From IMG/VR virus record IMGVR_UViG_3300030419_006406, positions 1-33,947 of that record: a stretch of DNA of 33,947 nucleotides; one strand, 5' to 3'. Of this stretch, positions 6,207 through 33,710 are shown piece after piece. The notes under the pieces are model-generated. The model had not been told where the DNA came from. It did no database searches and saw only the letters and a program-made list of their open reading frames with translations. The stretch comes from a virus. The position numbers were made by a program, and so were the translations under genes. Position 1 is the stretch's first letter. The number at the start of each line of letters is the position of its first letter.

Positions 6207-6283
6207 TGGTACGCCCGACTGGACTTGAACCAGTGACTTCCACCTTATAAGAGTGGCGTTCTAACCTACTGAACTACGGGCGT
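6207..6283 (-). tRNA. tRNA-Ile, anticodon UAU (reads AUA)
   Basis: A full cloverleaf folds by eye on the minus strand. The 7-bp acceptor is ACGCCCG/CGGGCGT and the D stem is GTTC/GAAC. The anticodon stem is CCACT/GGTGG with one G-U pair, and its loop is CTTATAA (anticodon TAT). The T stem is ACTGG/CCAGT with loop TTCAAGT. The discriminator A and CCA end are encoded (6207-6210). AUA is normally read in bacteria by a modified CAU tRNA, so a phage UAU tRNA would supplement reading of AUA codons, which occur in nearby phage genes. It lies just downstream of a strong promoter. Confidence 0.93.
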
Positions 6284-6418: not shown

Positions 6419-6425
6419 GCTAACA

Positions 6426-6454
6426 ACTATACAACATTTTAAAGCATTTGTCAA
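6426..6454 (-). promoter_or_regulatory. Strong sigma70-type promoter before the smORF/tRNA/helicase/RNR unit
   Basis: On the minus strand a perfect -35 TTGACA (6454-6449) and a -10 TATAGT (6431-6426) are separated by exactly 17 nt. The TGA inside TTGACA is the stop codon of the exonuclease gene. Transcription should start near 6418-6420 and cover the small ORF, tRNA-Ile, lipoprotein, helicase and RNR genes. Confidence 0.8.
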
Positions 6455-7419
6455 CAGTTTTCGAAAACTATATTTTTCATTGCCGCGAATAGGCTGCTCC
6501 AATCAAAAACACCAAAAGTATCTTCATTCATCATTTTAATAATTTCAGTTTTGTTGAAACTGCAATCGAGATTAAAGATAGAATTCTTGATATGTTGTTT
6601 TGACTGCGGGGAAATACTTGGAGAGTACAACTGCATAATTTTATAGTTTTCTTTAATGAGGTCCTTGTTCTCTACTATGTTCTTATAGATCTTCAACTCA
6701 TCCTCAATCTCTTTGCAGTGATCGATCACAAAAGGGATCTCGCATGGTTCTTGTTCTGAGAAGAACGGAAGTCTTTTGGCTATAGACTTTAAGCCCACTC
6801 CAGGGACACCGGGAAGATTGTCGCTCTTGTCTCCGGCTATAGCCCTAGCTAAGGCAAAATTAGTTGGGTGGATACCAAATTTTTCAACGATCCTGTTCTT
6901 GTTGACGACCTCTTTTTGAATAGGTCTTAAAATAACAGTTGAATCATCGCAAAGTTGATAGAAATCTTTGTCACTGCTGACAATTATTTTTTGACTGTCC
7001 TTCAACAGCGGCAGTTGTGTCACATAAGCAATCACATCATCTGCTTCGACTTCAGGTATCATCAGTTGAGTTATAGGCATCATGTTGAGGTATTCCATCA
7101 ACCTTGTCTGTTGCCATAGCTTGTTTTCTAACTCTTCGTTCTCACTTAACAAACCTTGGATACTCCTGTTGAGTCTTAGTGGTTTCCGGCCGGCTTTGTA
7201 GTTTTTATTGGTTGATTTTCGGCGCCTCGAACCGCCAGGGCCATCCCACACAACTACAACTCTGTCTGATTTTGTCTCTCTTAGTAATTTCTGTAGTATT
7301 TTCAGGAAACCTTTGACACCGCCTATTGGTTGGCCGTTAGCTGATAGACTAGGATCAACTATATAAGAGCGGAAATACATGTTAAGGGCATCAACCACCA
7401 ATATTCTATTTTTTGCCAT
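6451..7419 (-). CDS. 5'-3' exonuclease / flap endonuclease (PIN-like, T4 RNase H type)
   Basis: This 322-aa protein belongs to the FEN/Pol I N-terminal nuclease family. Acidic metal ligands are seen in ILVVDALN (D10), VVWDG (D59), EVEADDVIA (E125, D127, D128), SSDKDF (D150, D152) and AGDKSDNLPG (D197, D200). The helix-hairpin-helix GVPGVG follows. It would remove RNA primers and 5' flaps during lagging-strand processing. Because the phage polymerase here lacks any nuclease domain, this gene supplies the activity that Pol I carries in cis. Its start overlaps the preceding small gene by 14 nt. Its stop TGA forms part of the -35 box of the next promoter. Confidence in the family is high. Confidence 0.9.
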   Translation of the reverse strand: MAKNRILVVDALNMYFRSYIVDPSLSANGQPIGGVKGFLKILQKLLRETKSDRVVVVWDGPGGSRRRKSTNKNYKAGRKPLRLNRSIQGLLSENEELENKLWQQTRLMEYLNMMPITQLMIPEVEADDVIAYVTQLPLLKDSQKIIVSSDKDFYQLCDDSTVILRPIQKEVVNKNRIVEKFGIHPTNFALARAIAGDKSDNLPGVPGVGLKSIAKRLPFFSEQEPCEIPFVIDHCKEIEDELKIYKNIVENKDLIKENYKIMQLYSPSISPQSKQHIKNSIFNLDCSFNKTEIIKMMNEDTFGVFDWSSLFAAMKNIVFENC

Positions 7420-7696
7420 TTTTTACCTCTTTCTCCCATTTGTTCTCGTTGATGCCATGGATACAATACTCCAGCAGCGCCTTATACGAATCTTCCGTTT
7501 CAATTTTTGCTAAAGGAGGGCTCCAACATGTGGGCATTTTATTACCGTCAACAACCAGGGTTTCCTTATGTCCCTTTTTACCTCTTGTTTTAATCAGGGA
7601 CAAGTCTAATTCTTTATCCGGGAATTGTTTTTTAAGATCCTCCAAAAACCGCTTCTCGTTGGTGGCTTTTGAAGTCTTCGGGGTTTTTTTACTCAC
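7406..7696 (-). CDS. Small basic hypothetical protein
   Basis: This 96-aa protein has a lysine-rich N-terminal part (residues 1-50) and a more ordered second half with GNKMPTCWSPPLAKI and a helix ending EYCIHGINENKWEKEV. The start codon is GTG at 7696, with GAGG 8 nt upstream, 3 nt after the uvsX stop. It overlaps the exonuclease start by 14 nt. It sits between the recombinase and exonuclease genes, so a DNA-related accessory role is possible, but no family is recognised. Confidence 0.65.
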   Translation of the reverse strand: MSKKTPKTSKATNEKRFLEDLKKQFPDKELDLSLIKTRGKKGHKETLVVDGNKMPTCWSPPLAKIETEDSYKALLEYCIHGINENKWEKEVKNGKK

Positions 7697-7699
7697 AGG

Positions 7700-8812
7700 T
7701 CAACCCTCGATATCGTAATATTCGTTTGCGTCGCCTTCGCGTTTATCAAACTTAAGGATAACTTCTTCATCCATAATCTGCAAGATCCTTGCTCGGAATT
7801 TTTCGTCTTGGATCTTCTCCTTCCATTTGGAAGGTTGAAACTTCACCGACTCTCCATCCCCCATGTCCAGGGTATACCAAGCCCCAGATGATTTCATGCG
7901 GTTTGAACCTTTGACTGCTTCAAACCAACTCTCCTCATCCTGAATCCCGATGTCGTCTCCCCAGAGAATCTTAAATGTGCATTGCCTGCCTTGAGTTCCA
8001 AAACGACTCTTCTTTAGTGTCGCTTTAACCTCTGAGCCAACACGGAAACCACGGTCGTCCGTGATATAGGATGCCTTCGATTTTCTCCCGGTGAGCCATA
8101 CTCTAAGAGAATAAGCGTAAATCATTGCTTTTCCTCCAGGCGTCATGTAAGGTTCCACCATTGCTTCGGACGGGCTTCTCGTAATATTTGTCTTGAGTTG
8201 GTTTAAGACCAAAAATGTTGATTGACTGTTAGCGATTGGTACTGTTAGTTTACTCATGCCCTTAGCCAAGATTCTAGCTTTGACTGCCATGGAAGACAGT
8301 GGGTTAAAGTCCCCTTCAATGTCGCTCACGGCAGGCGTTAGAGCCAAAGAATCCCAAATGAACAACATCTGAGTTTCGTTGTTACCCAAGAGATCTTCGA
8401 TTGTCTCCAATACAAATTCTACCGATTGTGCCTGCACATATAACAACGTACTCAGATCACACCCCGCCTTTTCTAAAAAGCCCGGGTCAATTGCTGATTC
8501 CGAATCAAAATATACAACATCAATGCCCATCTTCTGAGCGTTGGCTGCAATTTGCGCGGCCATATAACTTTTCCCTGAGGCCTCAAGGCCTGCGATCTCA
8601 ACAACTTTACCAACGGGGATGCCAGATAACTTCCCACGGCAAATAATCGAGTCCAACCATCGGGATCCCGTCGGGATCCATTCTTTTACTTCTGTTGGGT
8701 TACTCTCCTGCAAACTATGCGCGACAGCCATTCCGGCTTTCTTGTTAATTATACTGCGCATCTCGCTTATAGAAAGTTTACCAGTTTTTGTTTTTTTACG
8801 TGCGCTTGACAT
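7700..8812 (-). CDS. uvsX: UvsX/RecA-like recombinase
   Basis: This 370-aa protein has the RecA core. Walker A is GLEASGKS (75-82), the catalytic Glu lies in VYFDSESAIDP (E105), and LFIWDSLALTP is Walker B. VLNQLKTNI is the Q-containing motif before loop L2, and MTPGGKAMIYAYSLRVWL closes the core. It would form filaments on single-stranded DNA, drive strand exchange and support recombination-dependent replication together with the gp32-like protein directly upstream. The start has a strong GAGGAG ribosome site just after the intergenic hairpin. The C-terminus is acidic. Length and motifs fit phage UvsX/RecA proteins. No UvsY or UvsW mediator is in the window. Confidence 0.9.
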   Translation of the reverse strand: MSSARKKTKTGKLSISEMRSIINKKAGMAVAHSLQESNPTEVKEWIPTGSRWLDSIICRGKLSGIPVGKVVEIAGLEASGKSYMAAQIAANAQKMGIDVVYFDSESAIDPGFLEKAGCDLSTLLYVQAQSVEFVLETIEDLLGNNETQMLFIWDSLALTPAVSDIEGDFNPLSSMAVKARILAKGMSKLTVPIANSQSTFLVLNQLKTNITRSPSEAMVEPYMTPGGKAMIYAYSLRVWLTGRKSKASYITDDRGFRVGSEVKATLKKSRFGTQGRQCTFKILWGDDIGIQDEESWFEAVKGSNRMKSSGAWYTLDMGDGESVKFQPSKWKEKIQDEKFRARILQIMDEEVILKFDKREGDANEYYDIEG

Positions 8813-8838
8813 TCTACTCCTCTAGTTATTCATCAAGT

Positions 8839-8882
8839 GGGGGCACCGTCCGTACTCGGAGGAATGTTTGGACGGCGCCCCC
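8839..8882 (-). other. GC-rich hairpin between the gp32-like gene and uvsX
   Basis: A 13-bp stem (one G-U pair on the minus-strand RNA) has arms at 8839-8851 and 8870-8882 and an 18-nt loop. No U tract follows on the minus strand, so it is a poor terminator. It is more likely an mRNA stabiliser, processing site or attenuator that sets gp32 above UvsX. The loop contains UCCUC, complementary to part of the uvsX ribosome site. Confidence 0.75.
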
Positions 8883-8905
8883 TTTACTTTAGGTCCAGTT
8901 AAAAA

Positions 8906-9667
8906 CTAGGATCCTAAAAGGTCATTAAAGGCCGCGTCGACCTCTGATACGTCTGAGTTTGTATCACTTGTTTTGCCGTATTTGGCCTCTTCAACAGAGT
9001 TCTCCTCTGCATCTGTGCCTCCAGCAAGATACTCTTCCAAAATTAGGCCGACCTGTTCAGGCGTTTTACGCTCAAAGAGGTCATTAAATTCTGGAATTGA
9101 TGCCAGGAGCGTTTCCGCATGTCCAGTATCTTCCACCAGGGCAGTTGATTTGCGTCTAGGGGTGATCTTGGTTTGTGGAAAAGAAGCTCCTGCTGGCTTG
9201 CCGTAATGGATGACAAGATCTGTCCCCTCTTCGGGATCTGTAATATCTCCATACTCCGGATTTAAAACCAAGCTCAACAGCTTTTCATAAGCCATCTTGC
9301 CGTAGCCCCAAATCTTAACTCCTTGGCCTTCCTCACCTCGAACAAGCACTGGAGAAAAGAAACGTTGACGAGCCATGAGATTTTTAGCCATCTTAATGCT
9401 GTCATCGGTGCCCTCGTTGAAAAGTTCGCGGACGAAAGAATCAAGAGGGTCATCCTCGCCAAAGTTTTTCTTTGGACTTAAGAACCCAGGGTTGTCCCCC
9501 AGATTATAGTGAAACCAGAAATCCTTGAACGGATCCCCGTCAGCAGTAGGGAGGATACGAATTGTTTGCTCCCCATCCTTTGGACGCCAGAAGACAGAAT
9601 CGCCTCCTCCGCCTCTATTTTGCAATTTAGAGAGTTTGCTTCTCATTTTATTCAGGTCAATGCCCAT
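8906..9667 (-). CDS. gp32-like single-stranded DNA-binding protein
   Basis: This 253-aa protein matches the T4 gp32 layout. A basic N-terminal cooperativity segment (LNKMRSKLSKL, the LAST-type motif) is followed by a glycine linker and an OB core with VFWRPKDGEQTIRILP, FWFHYNLG and RQRFFSPVLV. A conserved stretch GVKIWGYGKMAYEKL comes next. The tail after residue 215 is acidic with Ser/Asp runs and ends AAFNDLLGS, as expected for partner docking. There is no cysteine in the protein, so the zinc site of T4 gp32 is absent. The ribosome site AAAGGAG is strong. A GC-rich hairpin follows the stop, fitting a need for high expression. Confidence 0.88.
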   Translation of the reverse strand: MGIDLNKMRSKLSKLQNRGGGGDSVFWRPKDGEQTIRILPTADGDPFKDFWFHYNLGDNPGFLSPKKNFGEDDPLDSFVRELFNEGTDDSIKMAKNLMARQRFFSPVLVRGEEGQGVKIWGYGKMAYEKLLSLVLNPEYGDITDPEEGTDLVIHYGKPAGASFPQTKITPRRKSTALVEDTGHAETLLASIPEFNDLFERKTPEQVGLILEEYLAGGTDAEENSVEEAKYGKTSDTNSDVSEVDAAFNDLLGS

Positions 9668-9689
9668 AATTAAACTCCTTTGTTTAAAG

Positions 9690-10367
9690 TTAAAGTGACG
9701 AATTTTTCACTTTACTGATTGTGTTAAGAATTTGTTCTTGAACACCTAGCACGGAACTTTGAAGAAGTTCCATTTTGTCGTGCTCTTCGAGCATACCATA
9801 AAAACTATGGCTTGTCAAGCCCTGAACAAGGGCTTCTGCAAGATTTTTTTGATCTCGTACAAACTTATCTGCGACCGATTGAACGGTTACAGTGTTTGAT
9901 TCGACAACAAAAAGATCTGGTTGTTGCGAGGGAGCCTGAACTGTTTTCTCAGCCTCCTCGCTGTCTACATAGAGATTGCATTCCTCACGGGAAAGAAACT
10001 CATTTTTAGTAGCCTCTAAAGTTAGACCAGTCTTGGTCCTACGAATGTTTCGGGCCTCCAATTTTGAAATGCCCAATACATCCTTGGCAAACTGTTCCGA
10101 GGTGTAAAGCCTGTTATTACCAGGATAACGCCACAGCAGTGAATGCTTCACACAGCCGGCAAGTACCAGTGTATAACGCTGATTCTTGCGAACAGCCTCA
10201 AAACTTTCACCCTTTACGAGTTCACCATATTTAAAAAGCTGAGATGAGTACGGTTTAAAATTTCTTGCTGCACGCATCGCCTTTTGTTTGGTGGGGTAAG
10301 ATTTTCTGCCTCCAAAAGGATTGACAAAAATCCATTTCCCGCTACGTTGAGATTTTTCTACTCTCAT
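9690..10367 (-). CDS. Hypothetical protein at the head of the gp32 unit
   Basis: This 225-aa protein is the first gene after a strong sigma70 promoter, with a leader of about 57 nt and a GGAG site. The N-terminus (KSQRSGKWIFVNPFGGRKSY, then basic KQKAMRAARNFKP) looks like a small nucleic-acid-binding beta unit plus helix. The middle has LYTSEQFAKDVLGISKLEARNI, like a helix-turn-helix or domain-recognition region. The C-terminal third is long helix (VADKFVRDQKNLAEALVQGL, QEQILNTISKVK). It may regulate or assist replication, but no family is recognised, and this suggestion rests on position and charge only. Confidence 0.7.
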   Translation of the reverse strand: MRVEKSQRSGKWIFVNPFGGRKSYPTKQKAMRAARNFKPYSSQLFKYGELVKGESFEAVRKNQRYTLVLAGCVKHSLLWRYPGNNRLYTSEQFAKDVLGISKLEARNIRRTKTGLTLEATKNEFLSREECNLYVDSEEAEKTVQAPSQQPDLFVVESNTVTVQSVADKFVRDQKNLAEALVQGLTSHSFYGMLEEHDKMELLQSSVLGVQEQILNTISKVKNSSL

Positions 10368-10430
10368 TTAAAAGTTCTCCTTTCTAAGAAATAAAGACAA
10401 AACAACAAATATCTTATTTTGCCTATTCGT

Positions 10431-10459
10431 AGAATAACACATTAAATTATTTTTGTCAA
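10431..10459 (-). promoter_or_regulatory. Strong sigma70-type promoter before the gp32/uvsX unit
   Basis: On the minus strand -35 TTGACA (10459-10454) and -10 TATTCT (10436-10431) are 17 nt apart in an AT-rich spacer. As at the second promoter, the TGA within TTGACA is the stop codon of the upstream gene, here the WYL_2-like one. The expected start near 10424 gives a leader of about 57 nt. Confidence 0.78.
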
Positions 10460-11569: not shown

Positions 11570-11881
11570 TTATTCTTCTACAGATAGCAAGATAACCTTA
11601 TCAACAAAGGCGCCTTTCTCGTCAGACTTGGCACTCATACATTCAATCAGTTCATCTTGCGTATAGCCAAATGCATCGACTATCGCACTAAACACTTCAA
11701 AAATGTCTGCTAATTCTTCGAGAGTCGAGTCTTTAATAAACTCGTTGGTTTCTTCCTTTAATTTTTGTTTTAACAGCTCTTTGTACTCATCCTCATCAGC
11801 GTACCTAACAGTAAAGGTTTTACCTTCTGCAGTCAGGATGCCTGGAATCTTATCTCTTACTAATTTATTGTATACTTTCAT
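11570..11881 (-). CDS. MazG/HisE-like NTP or phosphoribosyl-ATP pyrophosphohydrolase
   Basis: This 103-aa all-alpha protein begins YNKLVRDKIPGIL, the hallmark of a HisE-like family common in phages and plasmids. It carries the metal-binding pairs EExxE (43-47) and ExxD (56-59, in LEELADIFEVF) of the MazG superfamily. It likely hydrolyses a nucleoside triphosphate or related nucleotide to the monophosphate, either cleaning the dNTP pool or tuning ppGpp-type signals. The true substrate cannot be read from sequence. It overlaps the DNA polymerase gene by 4 nt (ATGA) and is followed within 1 nt by the FtsZ-like gene. Confidence 0.8.
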   Translation of the reverse strand: MKVYNKLVRDKIPGILTAEGKTFTVRYADEDEYKELLKQKLKEETNEFIKDSTLEELADIFEVFSAIVDAFGYTQDELIECMSAKSDEKGAFVDKVILLSVEE

Positions 11882-13062
11882 ATTTTTAACCTCTTCATAT
11901 CTCCAAAATTTTTACCTGCTGATATATTCACTTTAAAGCTCCCTAGTTCTGTATCTGAAAAGATCTTTTTAACCTCGGGAATCATATATCGTTCATCGTC
12001 GCAAAAATCAATTACAAGACTGTCGTGAATAGAAAAACTTATGCTTGATTTTTTATCTTTTAAAAATTCGTGCACCTTAATCATTCTCCTCAAAAACAAA
12101 TCACTAGTTGTACTTTGTATTATATAATTCAAGGCGTGATGTTTATCAGCAGCAATAATTCTACCATAAAACGTATGTATTTGTTCACCGTCCCAGTGTT
12201 TTTTTAGGACGGAATCGCGATCATAAGTCTTGTTGGATTTGCTGTCTTTTGACTCTGGGTTGTAAAGCCAGGCGAACACCCTCTTCTTTGCTTCGTCTCT
12301 TGTCATCTTACCACCATACACATGCTTGGCATTCCAATTATGAATGTCCTCTAGAGGCTGTTCTTTATCGGACAGAGCTAGAAGGGTGCGAAGTTCTGCT
12401 GCGTTAAAGTCAAACTCCACGAACCAGTCATTATTTGGCTTTATCACTTTTCTATACTCTTTTGCCAAAGTTAAAATAGGAAAGCTGTGCTTTTTTGTGG
12501 TGAGCCGGCCAGTCTTTGTGCCAAATACATCATATTTTATGTAGGGTGAAGTCTTCTGGATCTTATCTTTTATTTGTCTTACCTTGAAATCATAAATCTT
12601 TTTATTCATCGGAGTTAAATCGATCTTAAGTTTCTGAAATGAAATATCATTTATAACCGATTGCAAAGATAAGAGAAAGTCATAATTTGAAGGCCTCTCA
12701 TATTTGTCAAAAACATGTTCTGTGATTCTGTTTTTAACATCACAAAAGTCTAGAAGAAATCTTTCAGGAACTAAATCAAAAAAGCAGTTCTCATTTAAAT
12801 CGACCTTTGCTTCCTTGAAGGATCTCATAAAAGCTCTGAGCTTGTTTGAAACGTCTTCCCACTGCTCCTTTAGCAGGTCTGGGCAAGCGGCCCCAGGATT
12901 ATCCGTACCACAGTAGAGATTAGCAAAGTCGATATCTTGTCCAGCCAGATAGCCGGCGAAAGACCAAGTTCTAGTGAGACTGTCAGAAAGTTCCTTATGA
13001 ATTTGTCCATTATGATATACTCCTACGCACTCTTTTTTATCGTCTAAAGTCTGAAATAGCAA
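11878..13062 (-). CDS. Short family A DNA polymerase without exonuclease domain
   Basis: This 394-aa protein covers only a Pol I-type polymerase domain. TGRLTTKKHSFPIL corresponds to the TGRLSS region. Motif A is EFDFNAAELR (D218, E223). Motif B is RDEAKKRVFAWLYNP (R255, K259, F263, Y267). LNYIIQSTTSDL precedes motif C, SIHDSLVIDF (H346, D347). Motif C ends HDS rather than HDE, and motif B has FAWLYN in place of FGxxYG. Both catalytic aspartates remain. No 3'-5' exonuclease domain fits in the roughly 160 residues upstream, so proofreading would need another gene. The start is TTG at 13062 with a weak GAGAAG site, so the exact N-terminus is uncertain. It follows the last structural gene. Confidence 0.85.
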   Translation of the reverse strand: MLFQTLDDKKECVGVYHNGQIHKELSDSLTRTWSFAGYLAGQDIDFANLYCGTDNPGAACPDLLKEQWEDVSNKLRAFMRSFKEAKVDLNENCFFDLVPERFLLDFCDVKNRITEHVFDKYERPSNYDFLLSLQSVINDISFQKLKIDLTPMNKKIYDFKVRQIKDKIQKTSPYIKYDVFGTKTGRLTTKKHSFPILTLAKEYRKVIKPNNDWFVEFDFNAAELRTLLALSDKEQPLEDIHNWNAKHVYGGKMTRDEAKKRVFAWLYNPESKDSKSNKTYDRDSVLKKHWDGEQIHTFYGRIIAADKHHALNYIIQSTTSDLFLRRMIKVHEFLKDKKSSISFSIHDSLVIDFCDDERYMIPEVKKIFSDTELGSFKVNISAGKNFGDMKRLKI

Positions 13063-21947: not shown

Positions 21948-21956
21948 ATAAATAGT
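21948..21956 (-). promoter_or_regulatory. Candidate late motif ACTATTTAT
   Basis: The minus strand reads ACTATTTAT followed by TTTG. It is identical to copies before the sheath, 185-aa and scaffold genes. It lies 23 nt before the ATG of the 113-aa gene. Its function as a promoter is inferred from recurrence. Confidence 0.45.
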
Positions 21957-23006: not shown

Positions 23007-23066
23007 ATTCTACCTCATATATTATTATATGATACAAGATTTTTTTAGTTATGTTAAATATTATTT

Positions 23067-23603: not shown

Positions 23604-23612
23604 ATAATTAGT
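23604..23612 (-). promoter_or_regulatory. Variant of the late motif (ACTAATTAT)
   Basis: The minus strand reads ACTAATTATTATAC, 21 nt before the tail tube ATG. It differs from the late nonamer by one base and lies in the 53-nt gap after the sheath gene. It may allow extra tube expression; the evidence is weak. Confidence 0.3.
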
Positions 23613-26941: not shown

Positions 26942-26984
26942 GCTGCTCTGTCTCCTTTAGTGTTTAAATCTAAACAATTCTTAA

Positions 26985-26993
26985 ATAAATAGT
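26985..26993 (-). promoter_or_regulatory. Candidate late motif ACTATTTAT before the sheath gene
   Basis: The minus strand reads TTACTATTTATTTAAG in the 76-nt gap between the gp15-like stop and the sheath ATG, 43 nt before the start. It is an exact copy of the nonamer at the other late gaps. No -35 box is evident. Confidence 0.5.
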
Positions 26994-27017
26994 AAGAGAA
27001 ACCGTGAAACTCCAAAA

Positions 27018-29732: not shown

Positions 29733-29741
29733 ATAAGTAGT
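29733..29741 (-). promoter_or_regulatory. Variant of the late motif (ACTACTTAT)
   Basis: The minus strand reads ACTACTTATATTATAGGAG, 19 nt before the gp13-like ATG and just after the terminator at 29763-29786. It differs from the nonamer at one base. Its place directly after a terminator is where a new promoter is expected. Confidence 0.4.
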
Positions 29742-30450: not shown

Positions 30451-30459
30451 ATAAATAGT
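30451..30459 (-). promoter_or_regulatory. Candidate late motif ACTATTTAT after the capsid terminator
   Basis: The minus strand reads GACTATTTATTGTACAC, 12 nt after the U tract of the capsid-gene terminator and 58 nt before the 185-aa gene. A promoter is required here if the terminator works, which strengthens the reading of this motif as a promoter element. Confidence 0.55.
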
Positions 30460-30470
30460 CTTCAATATAT

Positions 30471-30505
30471 AAAAAAGAAGGCCCCGGGCTTGCGCCCGGG
30501 GCCTT
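30471..30505 (-). terminator. Strong rho-independent terminator after the major capsid gene
   Basis: A 10-bp perfect GC stem GGCCCCGGGC/GCCCGGGGCC with a tetraloop (arms 30480-30489 and 30494-30503, extended by two A-T pairs) is followed on the minus strand by TTCTTTTTT. The plus strand also ends in T5, so it could work both ways. It lies 45 nt after the capsid stop codon. Confidence 0.95.
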
Positions 30506-33648: not shown

Positions 33649-33678
33649 TATATTCTCCAGGGAAATTAATTGCTAAAT

Positions 33679-33687
33679 ATAAATAGT
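33679..33687 (-). promoter_or_regulatory. Candidate late motif ACTATTTAT before the scaffold gene
   Basis: The minus strand reads GCACTATTTATATTTAGC in the 62-nt gap after the S74-type gene, 30 nt before the scaffold ATG. It is one of four exact copies in late gaps. Read on the other strand it contains TATAAATA, the T4 late promoter, but pointing away from the genes. Confidence 0.5.
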
Positions 33688-33710
33688 GCGTTATTCTCAC
33701 AAATGACATT

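Follow-up and report, generated by a model that had tools for sequence, protein, structure and literature searches.

A recurring AT-rich box as the probable -10 part of late promoters in a far-T4 phage lineage

What does the short motif ACTATTTAT do at the heads of structural genes in an environmental phage? It recurs in a 34-kb virus fragment (IMG/VR record IMGVR_UViG_3300030419_006406), and the whole stretch of 33,947 nucleotides that we analysed is referred to here as the window. A first-pass annotation made from the letters of this DNA had taken the motif for a promoter of late genes in a phage related to T4, a proposal that its placement, orientation and conservation at late gene heads support. 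Our reading, to which we give a probability of about 0.88 on the strength of the sequence comparisons, is that ACTATTTAT is the -10 part of late promoters in a far-T4 lineage, that it is likely read by a gp55-type sigma factor, and that it belongs to a two-part promoter at the major operon heads.

The capsid protein of the phage falls in the T4 gp23 family, and its nearest counterparts are those of LR756508 (an uncultured 484-kb phage), Flavobacterium phage immuto and Microcystis phage Mel-JY01. PHROGs recognise the sheath, tube, hub, connector and tape measure as well as a T4-like replication set, and a megablast of the window's late region against phages gave no match. We place the lineage among the far-T4 myoviruses, a large and mostly marine group of environmental phages.

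Four exact copies of the box and two copies with one mismatch are found in the window at the positions first reported for them (Table 1). All six are entirely intergenic and on the minus strand; as the first-pass annotation had described, they lie in late gaps, share one orientation and stand 19–58 nt before a start codon, and one of them directly follows the capsid terminator. The minus strand is the coding strand of essentially all genes in the window, including all those around the copies, and non-coding DNA makes up only 5% of the window. Exact ACTATTTAT occurs 4 times against 0.34 expected (four or more copies in 0/100 shuffles), with 0.026 copies expected in the non-coding sense strand of the window. 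The number of one-mismatch matches anywhere in the window (13, with 11.0 expected) is not above chance; the signal therefore lies in the exact copies, their intergenic place, their single orientation and, above all, their conservation in relatives, and the case for the two one-mismatch copies is made by their place and their orthologs, not by their number.

Table 1. Putative promoter elements and associated genes (window coordinates unless an accession or locus is named).
Feature	Position	Strand	Context
Box ACTATTTAT, putative -10 element	33679..33687	(-)	heads the 438-aa gene, which precedes the capsid gene
-35-like element GTCATTT	33701..33707	(-)	13-nt spacer to the 33679 box; group logo GGcaTTT, 31 promoters
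Putative transcription start, purines AG	33673..33674	(-)	conserved purine at box index +13/+14
Box ACTATTTAT, putative -10 element	30451..30459	(-)	past the capsid terminator; heads the 185-aa gene
Partial -35-like element TTCTTTT	30473..30479	(-)	overlaps terminator T-run
Variant box ACTACTTAT	29733..29741	(-)	one mismatch; heads the connector (Ad2) gene
Box ACTATTTAT, putative -10 element	26985..26993	(-)	heads the tail sheath gene
-35-like element GGAGTTT	27007..27013	(-)	before the sheath box; group logo ggctTTT, 41 promoters
Putative transcription start, GA	26979..26980	(-)	conserved purine position
Variant box ACTAATTAT	23604..23612	(-)	one mismatch; heads the tail tube gene; without -35 element
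Box ACTATTTAT, putative -10 element	21948..21956	(-)	heads the 113-aa gene (g113); without -35 element
Sigma70-type TTGACA-17-TATTCT	10425..10459	(-)	replication region; consensus scan
Sigma70-type TTGACA-17-TATAGT	within 6420-10459 (at 6454)		replication region
gp55-like late sigma gene, immuto	NC_055915.1 78183-78815		annotated as hypothetical protein
gp55-like late sigma gene, Mel-JY01	PP395634.1 158803-159372		annotated as hypothetical protein
Small gene downstream of gp55-like gene	L223-L302, e.g. G001 sense 42068-42376		conserved

A scan of IMG/VR found at least 598 encoding relatives, and the best 80 loci (60–77% capsid identity) were analysed. In these loci 122 copies of ACTATTTAT were oriented like the capsid gene vs. 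two in the opposite direction. After removal of redundancy (66 non-redundant relatives), ACTATTTA was the most strand-asymmetric of all 8-mers, with 193 sense and 2 antisense copies, and 170 of 188 box sites were followed within 110 nt by a ribosome site and start codon, compared with 34% of control positions. The box recurs at matching gene heads, namely those of the orthologs of sheath (exact in 52/54; 54/54 with at most one mismatch), the 438-aa pre-capsid gene (36/40; 40/40), connector (38/74; 71/74), tube (12/36; 31/36) and g113 (11/24; 22/24). It was not found before the orthologs of the capsid gene (0/77), g162 (0/61) or g292 (0/58), it preceded 1/35 hub orthologs, and antisense copies were absent from orthologous gene heads throughout. 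The enrichment in relatives that had been suggested as a check is thus borne out by this sense bias and by the gene heads that are kept, and the motif is clearly not equally frequent inside genes and in both orientations in the relatives. Our literature search, with most subscription journals outside its coverage, returned no paper in which ACTATTTA or TATTTAT is described as a late promoter of a phage.

The first-pass annotation had seen no -35 box, but this is wrong where the strongest class of these promoters is concerned. Alignment of the relatives' sites on the box revealed GGnnTTT spanning -20 to -14, and purines peaked at +13/+14. G[GT]nnTTT was present at the exact offset of -20 in 73/188 sites and at other offsets in 0–14 sites (mostly 0–5; highest at -32 and at the adjacent -19 and -21), and it persisted at -20 in 68/174 sites without an upstream terminator hairpin. 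TTT starting at -16 was shared by four mutually non-homologous promoters (27/31, 25/33, 36/41 and 42/48), and the combined 153 promoters gave the consensus GGC(T/A)TTT, whose three final positions were T in 87, 97 and 95% of cases. This element sits 13 nt above the box at the sheath, pre-capsid, connector and prohead-core promoters; none was found before the tube box among tube orthologs, and g113 promoters are also without it. A relaxed two-part pattern had 3 matches in the window, where none were expected. In 18 further near-complete genomes, which were chosen by their sigma or region-4 protein and not by promoter, the two-part pattern had 54 matches, on one strand per genome, whereas the reversed control had 3. 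What the sequences show directly is a two-part motif that is oriented, placed and conserved in a position-specific way, along with a gp55-family gene.

On this basis, ACTATTTAT is very probably a -10 element at -13 to -5. The major late operon heads (pre-capsid, connector, sheath and prohead core) would carry a two-part promoter, in which GGC(T/A)TTT at about -33 to -27 and a 13-nt spacer precede ACTATTTAT, and a purine start would fall 6 nt past the eighth base of the box. Other promoters, e.g., that of the tail tube, have the -10 box alone. We infer the transcription start, the late timing and the pairing of proteins with elements from these patterns.

With regard to orientation, the box had been likened to the reverse complement of the T4 late box, with the suggestion that either a different late sigma factor or changed orientation rules apply. 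T4 has TATAAATA as its late box, spanning -13 to -6, with a T at -13 that is loosely kept in relatives, and Aeromonas phage Aeh1 has CTAAATA from -12, read by a diverged gp55 (PMC1524935). With ACTATTTA set in that register, from -13 to -6, +1 is occupied by the conserved purine, as expected; in the same orientation as TATAAATA, ACTATTTA has two central A:T pairs swapped (AA to TT) and C at -12, and two central positions are all that separate it from the Aeh1 box. TATAAATA was not enriched in the sense direction. The near-palindromic make-up of this AT box accounts for the reverse-complement likeness, and the proposal was not upheld: the box is sense-oriented like those of T4 and Aeh1, and no change of orientation rules is needed. 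The other half of the suggestion fared better, in that relatives encode a divergent gp55-like sigma (see below).

Our promoters thus share with the T4 late promoter (gp55/gp33/gp45) an AT-rich 8-bp box at -13 to -6 before structural genes, a gp55-family sigma (here from near-complete relatives) and the lack of a classical TTGACA. They differ in the box itself, in a conserved -35-like element that is confined to the strongest class, in having no detectable gp45 family match in this lineage, and in extra small putative DNA-binding proteins. The likeness to Aeh1 extends to C at -12, the register, the orientation and a diverged gp55, whereas Aeh1 has AA at the two central positions where this lineage has TT, and no -35 element is reported in the consulted passages on Aeh1 (PMC1524935).

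The logo GGC(T/A)TTT-N13-ACTATTTAT does not meet the sigma70 pattern TTGACA-N17-TATAAT. The T4 middle promoter combines a MotA box at about -30 with a sigma70 -10 element, and it resembles our promoters in having a GCTTT-like element about 13 bp above the -10 element, but our box is not TATAAT and is used at late genes. A search for a MotA homolog (PF09158), with T4 as positive control, found none, and we rejected this class. Late transcription in T4 is the textbook case of a sigma factor that needs only a -10 box and the sliding clamp; a group that keeps a gp55 sigma together with a conserved -35 element could show how upstream recognition is gained or lost. The two-part signature is also usable for the annotation of late genes in many environmental far-T4 genomes.

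A search elsewhere in the genome for a gp55-like sigma factor had also been suggested, and it succeeded in near-complete relatives. Three of these (G001, G002 and G003) encode a gp55-like protein of ~220–240 aa, and 47/51 members of the gp55-like family match phrog_234, "late sigma transcription factor", which is the family of T4 gp55 (best E 4e-9; single-sequence matches are weak, with E about 5e-4 for G001). No such gene lies within the 34-kb fragment, and its presence is taken from the relatives. Homologs were detected in immuto and Mel-JY01, both annotated as hypothetical, and one in LR756508. Both immuto and Mel-JY01 have a box of the form [A/C]TATTTAT, which is sense-oriented (39 vs. 13 and 31 vs. 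15 in non-coding DNA, respectively). The hosts of these two phages are Flavobacterium and Microcystis (Bacteroidota vs. Cyanobacteria), and since phages of different phyla share the TATTTAT core and the sigma family, the box follows the phage sigma and not the host. A diverged, phage-encoded gp55-type sigma acting on host RNA polymerase would most likely read ACTATTTAT.

Other components of the machinery were searched for in the relatives. The sigma70 region 2 family gave nothing above cut-off, and a weak match led to the gp55-like protein. The full-length sigma of RM378 had no convincing homolog in the relatives; RM378, itself a relative, has a two-domain sigma instead and lacks the box. The T4-type clamp (PF02916, gp45 N-domain) was not detected in the relatives, while the T4 control was detected. 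A conserved small gene (~91–109 aa) follows the sigma gene and has the motif AAKYVETLQRSNEQLVK and a tail ..LFDLIQ, with no family match; immuto and Mel-JY01 have weak homologs in the corresponding position, and its product is a candidate gp33-like coactivator.

It can be asked whether the box acts in the RNA, as part of a 5' leader, a translation enhancer or a processing site, and its place 19–58 nt before start codons would suit such a role. We consider this extremely unlikely, given that the distance to the start codon is variable, that boxes lie directly behind terminators, and that the box is paired with an upstream element at a fixed 13-nt distance and followed by a peak of purines at the start position. 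The box could also be a promoter of a host alternative sigma factor, but the TATTTAT core is common to phages of Bacteroidota and Cyanobacteria, along with the gp55-like gene, which makes this explanation very unlikely. An ordinary late promoter of the T4 type, in which the -10 box has changed, no -35 element is at work and GGC(T/A)TTT is a by-product of terminators or AT-rich upstream DNA, has more in its favour. In T4 itself, late promoters lack a -35 element and gp33 reads no DNA sequence (PMC2988020, PMC7892883); some of our sites, e.g., 30451 and 29733, sit on terminator T-runs, and the tube and g113 promoters are without the element. Nonetheless, the element is kept at one exact offset in the hairpin-free sites, the GGC ahead of TTT and the AT-rich DNA above it do not suit a GC stem, and immuto lacks the element at this offset (0/35), so that we regard a plain T4-type promoter as improbable. 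We retain the two-part late promoter as our reading.

A phage-encoded accessory protein would most likely touch the -35 element, and two candidates are available. In this lineage, a two-gene operon of small proteins directly precedes the prohead-core late promoter. The first gene encodes a protein whose N-terminus is ribbon-helix-helix-like and whose C-terminal tail (..EIENIFDILEKEHPDL) is conserved, with acidic and hydrophobic residues; the product of the second gene (79–107 aa) contains a helix-turn-helix of the sigma region 4 type, along with five cysteines that are conserved. At somewhat under even odds, one of these separate small proteins reads a true -35 element, and the late holoenzyme has a multi-protein sigma that recognises two DNA elements, in contrast to T4, in which gp33 takes the place of sigma region 4. 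That separate proteins can recognise the -10 and -35 elements is known from the two-subunit sigma SigO/RsoA of Bacillus, to which our case is likened by concept alone. One version is a split sigma, with the gp55-like protein at the -10 and the region-4-like protein at GGC(T/A)TTT. The latter exceeds the curated Pfam Sigma70_r4 cut-off, is encoded in 14/18 near-complete genomes, has a late promoter directly after its gene at 67/77 loci vs. 4.4% background, and did not turn up in a search of immuto and Mel-JY01, both of which are without a clear -35 element (in Mel-JY01 it is weak, 4/25, at least partly terminator T-runs). However, its structure model had no Foldseek match below E 1 and a VIA-align Z of at most 3.3, its structural matches to sigma region 4 are weak (Z at most 3.2), and genome G018 has lost its gene while keeping the ribbon-helix-helix gene and five two-part promoters. 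This favours the ribbon-helix-helix protein or a third factor; the region-4-like protein as sole -35 reader is weakened, and a split sigma of this kind seems rather unlikely. A possible, if still doubtful, alternative is that the ribbon-helix-helix protein would bind the -35 element and tether the polymerase or clamp via its tail. Its gene was present at every r4 locus scanned and in G018 and G022 (87 loci with a match), and a search of immuto and Mel-JY01 likewise did not find it. CopG ranked top among folds, with Arc and RelB in the short list, and the character of the tail is like that of the clamp-binding tails of T4 gp33 and gp55. The ..IFDILEKEHPDL tail, and the ..LFDLIQ tail encoded by the small gene after the sigma gene, are candidate clamp-contact sequences. 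Against this, the fold scores are weak (E above 1), and the PF02916 search found no clamp in the relatives. Genome G020 has structural genes, neither small gene and no two-part sites, although its contig may end before that locus. The gp55-like sigma of immuto and Mel-JY01, the ribbon-helix-helix protein and the region-4-like protein are hypothetical genes that are now named for testing.

Two further observations concern this locus and the Sigma70_r4 profile. An IMP dehydrogenase/GMP reductase-like gene, judged by sequence appearance, lies directly before both small genes (L115:12-1055, L116:2031-3089, L117:2044-3048 and L119:2042-3064). In T4, a 312-aa open frame at the rIIB end has a weak Sigma70_r4 match (NC_000866.4 168763-168873).

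Host-type promoters form a contrasting class. In the near-complete relative G001, sigma70-type sites (TTGACA/TATAAT) number 70 sense vs. 21 antisense, with a dense array at 164–182 kb, and the two-part late sites lie apart from this block, at 77–142 kb. These sites make the early genes look host-driven, in that they would be served by host-type TTGACA/TATAAT promoters. The replication region of the window has sigma70-type sites as well (Table 1). The baseplate hub gene of the window, without a late box, has a sigma70-like TTAACA-17-TATCAT (23007-23066), and the corresponding hub region of G001 (sense 110696) has TTAACA-16-TATAAT; a conserved host-type promoter may thus lie inside the late block. 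Elsewhere in the window, the match of a 394-aa gene (11878-13062) to a phage DNA polymerase family is confined to the C-terminal polymerase part, and the DNA polymerase may therefore be split into separate genes, and a tRNA-Ile with anticodon TAT is encoded at 6207-6283.
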